From Candidatus Korarchaeota archaeon NZ13-K (lineage in GTDB: Archaea; Korarchaeota; Korarchaeia; Korarchaeales; Korarchaeaceae), in the NCBI GenBank assembly GCA_003344655.1, contig MAIU01000001.1, positions 1 to 64,000 of the forward strand: DNA of 64,000 nt. The letters are read 5' to 3'. A model generated the notes under the pieces. The model made no database searches. It was given only the letters and a program-made list of their open reading frames with translations, and was not told the DNA's origin. Shown here piece after piece: positions 10,908 through 40,315 of the stretch. The translations under genes were made by a program, and so were the position numbers. Each line of letters begins with the position of its first letter. Positions within the stretch are counted from its first letter, which is position 1.

Positions 10908-12242
10908 TTAACGGTTACTCGTGCAGTAGGGGTTCCTGGGGATCTCCACGAGCTCCTTGGGCCCCTTCACAGTGGCATCTATTATCATCTTCCCTTGGGG
11001 TAGTCTCAGGATCCTCCTCTCCCCATCGAAGACGATCTCCCTCAGGTTGCTGTGATCGAGTGAGGATCCCCTTATCCCGCTTATCATCTTATAATCATCA
11101 GGTATATGTGCCCTCTGGACGACGGCTCTCATCACCTCGACGTAGTTCGTCACATCAACGTCCTCATCGACTATGATGACCCTCTTCAGGCTCTTATGCG
11201 CAGAGATCGCCATAAGTCCGGCTAAAGTGGGCTGATCCTCATGAGTCTTCCTTATCGCCACCGCGGCCTCCACCCAACCGGCTCCTGCTGGAGTCATGGC
11301 CACGTCTACGACCTCGGCGACCTCTGACACCCTCTCTTCGATCAAGGGCTCGACCGGAAGTCCCATCAGGATCTGGTGTTCCATGCCGGCCGGCAGGATG
11401 GCTTGGTATATCGGCTCCTCCCTAGTGTAAATGGATTCCACCGTTAGAACTGGTTGCATCCTCACGATATCCTTCCCGAGTATCTCATAAAAGGGCCCCT
11501 CCGGCGCTAGATCACCCGGCTTTATTCTACCGCATATCACTATCTCGGCGTCCGAAGGAGCCCAGGCATCCAGCTCCTCGCATCTCGAGATCTCAACGGG
11601 TTCTCCGAGGATGCCCCCTGCTACGGAAAGCTTATCTCTATCCTCAGCGGGCATCGCAGACGCCACCAGCACCTCAGGTGGATTACCTATGGAGACGGCG
11701 ACCTCAAGATCTCTCCCTAACTTCGAGAACTTCTCAATAGTTCTGCTGAGCTTTCTTCCCTCTACGGCTCTCAAGACAAGTCTGTTCTCTGATATTGGAA
11801 GCATCCTATGGTAGGAGGAGGAGAACTTGCTTCCATCCTTGAATATCACTATCGATGCTGTCATGTAGGGACCCGGCTCCCCCAAATAGTGCCTCAGGAC
11901 GGGCAGGTCCTTGAGAGTTAGGTCGGTCCTCCTCCACTTGGGTTCGGCCTCAATTGGATCTCTTCCATCATTCAATGATCTCCTCATCCTCTCCTTCAGC
12001 TCTCTAATGGAGCTCAATCCCATGGCGGCCACTAGGGTCTCTCTGGAAGTGGCAAACCCCCCGAAGACCCCGAATGAGGAAGCCCTTCCATCCCTAAGCA
12101 AGGTTCTCCTGACGAGCACCGCCTTCCTACCATCTAACTTGATCAGATGGGAGGCTATCTCATACTCCACGGAGAGGGGTCCATCGAAAACCTCCAGGAG
12201 GCCCTTCTCACTCAAAAGCCTTATGGAGTCCCTTAGCTCCAT
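10908..12242 (-). CDS. UbiD-family decarboxylase, candidate anhydromevalonate phosphate decarboxylase
   Basis: 444-residue UbiD-type decarboxylase that would need prenylated FMN. Family patterns are SSFGVFGGFATSRE, PYMTASIVIFKDG, YHRMLP, EDRDKLSVAGGILGEPVEI, GRIKPGDLAPEGPFYE and VDEDVDVTNYVEVMRAV. In archaea lacking the classical phosphomevalonate route, a UbiD homologue decarboxylates trans-anhydromevalonate 5-phosphate to isopentenyl phosphate. The fused AcnX gene at 38879-40315 could provide the preceding dehydration, which supports this role by co-occurrence, not proximity. The substrate is therefore inferred. No UbiX-like prenyl-FMN synthase is seen in the window. The start fits a leaderless mRNA (TTTTAGAT at about 12262-12270). 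Confidence 0.85.
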   Translation of the reverse strand: MELRDSIRLLSEKGLLEVFDGPLSVEYEIASHLIKLDGRKAVLVRRTLLRDGRASSFGVFGGFATSRETLVAAMGLSSIRELKERMRRSLNDGRDPIEAEPKWRRTDLTLKDLPVLRHYLGEPGPYMTASIVIFKDGSKFSSSYHRMLPISENRLVLRAVEGRKLSRTIEKFSKLGRDLEVAVSIGNPPEVLVASAMPAEDRDKLSVAGGILGEPVEISRCEELDAWAPSDAEIVICGRIKPGDLAPEGPFYEILGKDIVRMQPVLTVESIYTREEPIYQAILPAGMEHQILMGLPVEPLIEERVSEVAEVVDVAMTPAGAGWVEAAVAIRKTHEDQPTLAGLMAISAHKSLKRVIIVDEDVDVTNYVEVMRAVVQRAHIPDDYKMISGIRGSSLDHSNLREIVFDGERRILRLPQGKMIIDATVKGPKELVEIPRNPYCTSNR

Positions 12243-37799: not shown

Positions 37800-38882
37800 A
37801 TGGACGACGAGTCGGTGAGTTTCTTCTCACGTCTCTCCGAGAGTTTTGGGCCATCCGGATTCGAGTCAGAGCCCCTTAATCTAATCAAGGGACGTTACTC
37901 GATCTTCTCAGATGATGTGCTGAGGGATGGACTCGGATCGCTTATACTCAAGAAGAGAGGGAGCAGCGATGTCCCGAGGGTTATGGCTGCGGGTCACGTC
38001 GATGAGATAGGTTTCATAGTGGTCTCGATAGAGGACAACGGGTTCCTGAAGTTCGAGGCATTGGGAGGCTGGGCCTCAACCACGCTGCCTGCTCAGAGGG
38101 TCGTTGTGAGGACCAGGAAGGGAGATCACGTCGGCGTCATAGCGAGCAAACCTCCCCATCTTATGACCCCGGAGGAGAGGAACAAGCCCATTGAGCTCAA
38201 GGACCTCTTCATAGATGTCGGGGCTAAGAACAAGGATCAGGTGAAGGAGATGGGGATAAGGATAGGAGACCCCATCGCTCCGCTGGCGCCCTTCGAGGTG
38301 CTGAGGGGGGGTAAGGCGTGGCTGGGGAAGGCCTTCGATGATAGGGTGGGGACCTTCGTGGTCATGGAGGCGCTGAGGGACCTTAAGGAGAGGGGGACTG
38401 ACCATCCGAACACATACTATGCCGTGGCCACCGTGCAGGAGGAGGTCGGTCTGAGGGGCGCTGAGACGGCGGCCGATGTGGTGAATCCGGACGTGTTCAT
38501 AGCCGTTGACGTTGACATAGCTGGCGACTCCCCGGGAATAACGTCAGCCGAGGCGCCGGCGAAGATGGGGGAGGGGGTGTCCATAATAACTTGGGACAGG
38601 AGCATGATACCCAACTTCAAGCTCAGGGAGTTCGTGGTGGAGGTCGCTGAGGAGGAGAACATACCCTATCAGCTCTCGGCCGTTAGGGGAGGGACTGATG
38701 CGGGGAGGGTCCATCTGCACAGCAAGGGAGTACCTTCGGTGGTGCTGGGGGTTCCGACCAGGCACATACACTCCCATAGCTCCATATTATCACCGGATGA
38801 TGTGGAGGCAGCGATGAAATTGCTTGTGGCCCTGATCAAGAAGATGGACTCGAGCACTGTCAGGGGGTTTTACGAACCTTGA
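37800..38882 (+). CDS. M42-family metallo-aminopeptidase
   Basis: 360 residues. Dinuclear-metal M42 peptidase (TET/deblocking aminopeptidase or endoglucanase-annotated group). Ligand regions: AAGHVDEIGF, the bridging Asp in LGKAFDDRVG, catalytic Glu pair in VQEEVGLRGA, VDVDIAGDSPG, and the last His in PTRHIHSHSS; GGTDAGRVH precedes it. These enzymes form large tetrahedral complexes that trim short peptides in the cytoplasm. Leaderless ATG. The stop overlaps the AcnX start by 4 bp (TTGA). Confidence 0.9.
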   Translation: MDDESVSFFSRLSESFGPSGFESEPLNLIKGRYSIFSDDVLRDGLGSLILKKRGSSDVPRVMAAGHVDEIGFIVVSIEDNGFLKFEALGGWASTTLPAQRVVVRTRKGDHVGVIASKPPHLMTPEERNKPIELKDLFIDVGAKNKDQVKEMGIRIGDPIAPLAPFEVLRGGKAWLGKAFDDRVGTFVVMEALRDLKERGTDHPNTYYAVATVQEEVGLRGAETAADVVNPDVFIAVDVDIAGDSPGITSAEAPAKMGEGVSIITWDRSMIPNFKLREFVVEVAEEENIPYQLSAVRGGTDAGRVHLHSKGVPSVVLGVPTRHIHSHSSILSPDDVEAAMKLLVALIKKMDSSTVRGFYEP

Positions 38883-40315
38883 CGGATGAGATGGTCATAA
38901 CATCACCGATCTCCTGGCTCGATGGTGTTGACGTCAGGACCGGGAGGATAGTTCAGGAGGGTCACCCACAGAGGGGGCAGAGCATAGCTGGAAAGATAGT
39001 CAGGATCAAGGGATCCACCGGATCCACGGTGGGGGCATACATATTCTTCGCGCTCAAGAGGAACAACGTGGCACCTCTTAAGATAATCGTCGAGGAGCCC
39101 GACAGCGTGACGATAGCCGCCGAACTGGCCGGGATACCCGTCGAGATAAGGGGAGTGAGGGAGGTTAGGCTTGAGGATGAAAGCGTCGAGGAGGAGCTCA
39201 GGAGGTACCTGGAGAGGGAGGCCTCGATCACCGGAGCCGAGGGCTTCGCCAGGGTCAGGTCCGTTCACGTTTCAGGGGTATCTTACGCCACGATAGGAGA
39301 TTCGGGTAGGGAGTGGCTCTCCGAAATATCGAGGAGGATCAGGTTCAGGGTCACCGCTACCACGAACCCTGCTGGGATGGACCTCGTCGATTGGAATACC
39401 ATGGGAATCCCTGAGGGATTCGCGAAGAAGCAGATGGAGATAGTGGATTCCCTGATCAGCATGGGTGCGGTACCCACGTTCACCTGCATCCCCTACTTGG
39501 TCGGGAACCTCCCGACCTACGGGGAGAGGGTCTGCTGGGGAGAATCAAGCGCCGTGGCCTTCATCAACAGCGTCCTAGGGGCCAGATCCAACAGAGAGGG
39601 GGCAACTAAGACGATTGTTGTGGCGGCCGCTGGCTACACTCCGGTCTATGGGAAGCACCTGGATGAGAACAGGCTCCCGAGCATAAGGGTAGAGGTCGAG
39701 CCCTTGGAGGATGTCCTCCAGCACTATCTGCTAGCCTACTATGTCGGTCTCCATTATCCGGATTCAGTGCCCCTCTACACGGGTCTCAAGAGGGTCTCCT
39801 TAGCGGAGCTCAAGGCGATGTCCGCTGCCGGTGCGGCATCCGGATCAATAGAGATGTTTCACATACCCGGGATAACTCCCAACGATATATCCGATGTCAG
39901 CAGATCCCTCAAGGTCACCAAAAGGGATCTGTCCTTGCTGAGGGAGGAGATGAGTTCCTTCGAGGGCGGATCAGATCTCGTTGTCCTAGGATGTCCTCAC
40001 CTATCGCTCCAAGAGCTCAGGGAGATAGGAAGGCTTGTTGATGGGAGGAGAGCCCTAGTGAGGTTCTGGCTATTCACGGCAAGGGCCTTCATGCCGATGA
40101 TAGAGAGATCGGAGCTGAAAAGGGTTTTCAAGGAGTTCGGAGCTGAGATATGGTATGACACGTGCATGGTAGTCTCCCCCCTCGAGGAGCTTGGGATAAG
40201 GAAGGTGACCACGAACTCCGCTAAGGCGGCAAAGTACCTTAGGAGCCTGAGGAAGCTGGAGGTGGAACTTCTGGATGTGAAAGAGATAATAGGAAGATAT
40301 ACTGCTCAGCGTTGA
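38879..40315 (+). CDS. Fused aconitase X protein (candidate mevalonate 5-phosphate dehydratase)
   Basis: 478 residues. Residues about 1-130 are the AcnX small 'swivelling' domain (SPISWLDGVDVRTGRIVQEG, HPQRGQSIAGKIV); about 131-478 are the large domain (VSGVSYATIGDSG, TATTNPAGMDLVDW, NSVLGARSNREG). Candidate iron-sulfur Cys ligands are in VPTFTCIPYL, VLGCPHLS and YDTCMVV. In archaea, AcnX proteins dehydrate mevalonate 5-phosphate to trans-anhydromevalonate phosphate, with small and large subunits normally encoded separately; here they are one chain, small domain first. The TTG start overlaps the M42 stop. Function fits the UbiD homologue at 10908-12242; an alternative is a hydroxyproline dehydratase role. 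Confidence 0.85.
   Translation: MTDEMVITSPISWLDGVDVRTGRIVQEGHPQRGQSIAGKIVRIKGSTGSTVGAYIFFALKRNNVAPLKIIVEEPDSVTIAAELAGIPVEIRGVREVRLEDESVEEELRRYLEREASITGAEGFARVRSVHVSGVSYATIGDSGREWLSEISRRIRFRVTATTNPAGMDLVDWNTMGIPEGFAKKQMEIVDSLISMGAVPTFTCIPYLVGNLPTYGERVCWGESSAVAFINSVLGARSNREGATKTIVVAAAGYTPVYGKHLDENRLPSIRVEVEPLEDVLQHYLLAYYVGLHYPDSVPLYTGLKRVSLAELKAMSAAGAASGSIEMFHIPGITPNDISDVSRSLKVTKRDLSLLREEMSSFEGGSDLVVLGCPHLSLQELREIGRLVDGRRALVRFWLFTARAFMPMIERSELKRVFKEFGAEIWYDTCMVVSPLEELGIRKVTTNSAKAAKYLRSLRKLEVELLDVKEIIGRYTAQR

Follow-up and report, generated by a model that had tools for sequence, protein, structure and literature searches.

The archaeal phosphomevalonate dehydratase has so far been described as a two-subunit enzyme, and bacteria and fungi are known to have aconitase X (AcnX) proteins of Type I, which carry the swivel domain first in a single chain. 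The cluster- and substrate-binding residues have been reported for TkAcnX, which acts on mevalonate 5-phosphate, and for AtAcnX, which acts on cis-3-hydroxyproline (PMC8184944), and in the Aeropyrum enzyme three cysteines hold a [4Fe-4S] cluster (PMC10040528). AcnB and the fungal isopropylmalate isomerase likewise place the swivel N-terminal to domains 1-3, but they have other substrates and their sequence similarity to AcnX is insignificant (PMC8184944).

The window analysed here, a stretch of 64,000 nucleotides from the draft genome of Candidatus Korarchaeota archaeon NZ13-K (148 contigs, 1.37 Mb, 96% complete), carries both AcnX domains within one unbroken frame (Table 1). Matches to the Pfam profiles for the swivel (PF01989; E=6e-21, 74.5 bits versus a cut-off of 27) and the large domain (PF04412; E=7e-112, 374.4 bits versus 31.5) lie far over threshold and place the protein in AcnX, confirming the 478-residue chain with an N-terminal small domain that the initial annotation had described. 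Its impression of a shortened large-domain start was also right, since the PF04412 match begins only at profile position 28 of 400; it had missed that the small domain is trimmed too, at both ends. The position of the TTG start is occupied by TTG or ATG in relatives. Separate AcnX subunits elsewhere in the genome had been named as evidence that would overturn the annotation, and none was found by profile search: PF01989 and PF04412 each have one match genome-wide, both in this ORF. We put at about 0.87 the probability that the gene is an independent fusion of an AcnX of Type IIb that has lost terminal segments, and that its product is a single-chain phosphomevalonate dehydratase serving the modified mevalonate route of archaea.

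Table 1. Features of the fused AcnX gene and associated genes in the window
Feature	Position	Strand	Description	Basis
Fused AcnX gene	38879..40315	+	TTG start; 478-residue product, a predicted phosphomevalonate dehydratase in one chain	ORF, Pfam, NCBIfam
Swivel domain PF01989	38909..39139	+	aa 11-87; holds active-site L14 and S49-T50-V51	Pfam
Junction	39140..39214	+	aa 88-112	Alignment against split-gene and Type I sequences
Large domain PF04412	39215..40291	+	aa 113-471, profile 28-399	Pfam
Codon Cys203	39485..39487	+	Cluster ligand corresponding to Cys110(L) of TkAcnX	PMC8184944
Codon Cys372	39992..39994	+	Corresponds to Cys283(L) of TkAcnX; bacterial Type I AtAcnX has Ser449 here	PMC8184944
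Codon Cys429	40163..40165	+	Equivalent to TkAcnX Cys342(L)	PMC8184944
UbiD-family decarboxylase gene	10908..12242	-	Candidate trans-anhydromevalonate 5-phosphate decarboxylase (next step); only one found in genome	
M42-family aminopeptidase gene	37800..38882	+	Overlaps AcnX start by 4 nt	

The cluster cysteines, C203, C372 and C429 in the source protein, are present in all 23 complete fused chains that we recovered, and the equivalents of TkAcnX C110, C283, C342, E129, S130, S131, K361, Y365, N79, G48 and S50 are identical in the same 23. Residues S62, T63, V64 and L27 of the TkAcnX small subunit are kept in the aligned fused chains as well. In the source protein, the mevalonate 5-phosphate site is matched by S49, T50, V51, L14, G133, V134, S135, N163, E222, S223, S224, K449 and Y453. 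The exception among the ligands is N53 of TkAcnX, which binds the phosphate and is replaced by T138; of 27 rows of split archaeal chains, 3 have threonine here as well, and the change counts against our preferred reading. Elsewhere in the site, A47 of TkAcnX is serine in the fused chains, as it is in some split archaeal chains, and V49 is isoleucine in five fused chains.

An alternative is that the fused chain dehydrates another hydroxy acid, for instance cis-3-hydroxyproline, as bacterial single-chain AcnX does. The two share their domain order, and the best NCBIfam match of the large domain is to a hydroxyproline dehydratase model, but at 256 bits it falls far short of the cut-off of 700. 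The bacterial enzymes also differ in their substrate residues and cysteine set. The Type I discriminators Trp35, Thr72, Asp203, Ile206 and Ser449 (residue list of PMC8184944) are absent from the fused chains and mostly replaced by Type II residues; at the first four AtAcnX positions the source protein has L14, V51, S132 and S135. Nor does it carry the Type I set of Cys273, Cys508 and Cys510 with Ser449. Instead, the Ser449 position is occupied by C372 and the Cys508-X-Cys510 positions by C429-M430-V431. The third cysteine is that of Type II; the sole Type I row with cysteine at the Ser449 position is an engineered mutant, 7D2R. Among solved structures, the best relatives are the large and small subunits of TkAcnX (217 and 59 bits), with Type I at no more than 176 bits. 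The initial annotation had stated that a hydroxyproline or other acid substrate would refute it, and the discriminating residues are instead those of a mevalonate 5-phosphate dehydratase rather than a cis-3-hydroxyproline dehydratase (PMC8184944).

We next compared these results with the rest of the pathway. Three GHMP kinases were found in the source genome: mevalonate kinase and two others that are homoserine and shikimate kinases, so that no phosphomevalonate kinase (PMK) or decarboxylase (MDD) was detected in the GHMP kinase search. That neither was found to fill the missing step argues further against another hydroxy acid as substrate, and we regard that alternative as very improbable. 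The genome does encode mevalonate kinase, a UbiD-type decarboxylase and an IPK-like kinase, the combination expected of the archaea-type mevalonate pathway in which PMK and MDD are lacking. The IPK-like kinase scores slightly below its cut-off (111.9 versus 120 bits), which counts against our reading; in two genomes of its genus, the counterpart genes score above that threshold. A further point against is that HMG-CoA reductase had no match in the source MAG and is present in all seven relatives searched; the gene probably lies in the missing part of the source genome. Together, residues and pathway genes support the initial assignment of the protein as a putative AcnX of the mevalonate route.

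The main difficulty for a dehydratase of this route concerns the enzyme that would act next. UbiX makes the prenylated flavin (prFMN) used by UbiD enzymes. The UbiD-type decarboxylase is present in the source's family, as tested in six of its genomes. UbiX (TIGR00421) was not found in any of the five family genomes searched, nor a PF02441 flavoprotein in eight of nine, the source being included in both sets; the one exception, G026, is 6% contaminated. The genomes in which neither was found are G000, G006-G009, G012, G014 and G022, one of which is a single contig. UbiX is present in the outgroup genomes G001 and G002. That no UbiX was found in these family genomes counts against our reading, as the next enzyme should need one for its prFMN. 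We tentatively raise, as a possible but rather unlikely arrangement, a remodelled mevalonate route in which a dehydratase of one chain, its swivel barrel pared down, feeds the UbiD-type decarboxylase, and the prenylated flavin of the latter comes not from a recognisable UbiX but from scavenging or from another enzyme.

If the protein is a phosphomevalonate dehydratase, its likely mode of action can be read from the residues it shares with TkAcnX, from which we infer the cluster type, the substrate and the reaction. The N-terminal swivel domain would provide the catalytic serine (S49) and the carboxylate-binding T50, while the large domain would provide the three cysteines holding a [4Fe-4S] cluster, along with E222, K449 and the phosphate site formed by GVS and N163. 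With the cluster as a Lewis acid for the C3 hydroxyl, the dehydration product would be trans-anhydromevalonate 5-phosphate, which would then pass to the UbiD-type decarboxylase. The archaeal Type IIb enzymes (TkAcnX, PDB 7CNR/7CNS, and ApPMDh of Aeropyrum pernix) have the same cluster cysteines, catalytic serine, carboxylate and hydroxyl ligands, most of the same phosphate ligands and the same pathway context. However, they consist of two polypeptides, and because the source protein is one chain, we file it as a variant of Type IIb; its length is about 50 aa below the combined length of either of two split pairs that we read.

We aligned the fused chains with split homologues, as the initial annotation had proposed, and also with Type I chains, and found segments lost from both ends of the swivel and from the beginning of the large domain. 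Relative to a stand-alone small subunit, the fused chains lack about 15 residues at the N terminus and 25 at the C terminus; from the large subunit, roughly the first 27 residues (MYLTKEEEKML...) are missing. In split small subunits the opening segment has the form GR.I..G.A.GEALV and the closing one GD.V.VDAD.G.V. Neither occurs in the fused chains, and the junction takes the place of the small subunit's C-terminal tail and the large subunit's N-terminal segment. The source protein has 478 aa, whereas two split pairs total 527 and 531 aa. The bacterial Type I fusions, in contrast, keep the corresponding terminal regions and are longer (579 aa for the chain in the PDB). A structure model made from five sequences had a mean pLDDT of 51 and was not used. 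Where gene order was readable in split pairs, the large-subunit gene comes first, whereas the fused chain is swivel-first, so that simple loss of a stop codon between the two genes would not be expected to yield it, judging from the pairs sampled.

Phylogenetic analysis of the large domain placed the fused chains in one clade, with support of 88/78 across all rows and 100/99 once long-branch rows were left out. The clade lies next to the split archaeal chains and is separated by a long branch from Type I. Since Type I is itself derived from the split Type IIa (PMC8184944), an independent fusion of Type IIb within the source's phylum is the most likely history, in which the two subunits would have joined separately from bacterial Type I and both would have lost terminal segments. 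The opposite direction, in which fission of an ancestral single chain gave rise to the split archaeal subunits, seems to us very improbable. Other placements of the fused clade, including a tree that groups the split archaeal chains apart from the fused and Type I chains, were not significantly rejected (p-AU 0.23 and 0.14), which leaves fission some room. Yet the split form is the only state seen in two other archaeal phyla sampled, the published derivation of Type I likewise runs from split to fused, and the terminal segments that split subunits and Type I retain are missing from the fused archaeal chains, which makes the fused archaeal form look derived.

The initial annotation had proposed a natural fusion in the archaeal mevalonate route. 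The active-site residues and pathway genes bear this out, but the fusion is not peculiar to the source genome and recurs across its phylum. Among 29 genomes of the phylum searched, 25 contain the swivel domain. In the source's family it occurs once in each of 22 genomes (the source and 21 others), in frames of 476-636 aa, and the fused chain is also present in two genomes of another class, G001 and G002. Reading was complete for 23 of the 24 fused chains, at 469-484 aa, with the remaining one interrupted by N; one complete chain comes from G009, a genome in a single contig of 1,590,757 bases. An assembly or frameshift artefact joining neighbouring genes, conceivable in a draft of 148 contigs, is thus refuted for practical purposes by relatives in which the same fusion has the same trimmed ends, and by split pairs that run in the reverse order.

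Split AcnX genes do occur in the phylum. In G004, which lacks the fused form, a stop or frameshift divides the large-subunit gene of a split pair between two frames (L070/L073), and the small subunit is intact. G001 and G002 each carry a second, split pair (L005/L064 and L006/L065) beside the fused copy. These pairs have the three cysteines; they lack the GVS phosphate loop and have Asp for Asn79. Because of the missing loop we rejected them as the true dehydratase, and the fused copy is the better candidate in these genomes too.

Beyond the phylum, two DPANN loci that appeared fused by tblastn proved to be separate overlapping genes, large then small. No fused frame was found in the 15 genomes with matches from the phylum of the Diapherotrites locus or the 19 from that of the Aenigmatarchaeota locus, and no related loci were found in viral contigs. 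Among the papers available to us, none was found to describe an archaeal AcnX fusion.

We regard the fused AcnX as a genuine though modest departure from a known enzyme rather than a new kind. The AcnX subunits would thereby have been fused a second time, with the bacterial domain order and another substrate, and the chain shows what each subunit can do without. The TkAcnX subunits rotate by about 26 degrees upon substrate binding (PMC8184944), and a natural single chain offers a fixed one-to-one pair for studying closure of the swivel over the cluster. In addition, the mevalonate pathway of this phylum may be misassigned where annotation looks for two separate genes.

Finally, we observed that the upstream M42-family aminopeptidase gene adjoins the fused AcnX gene in the readable members of the genus, with 75-92% identity.
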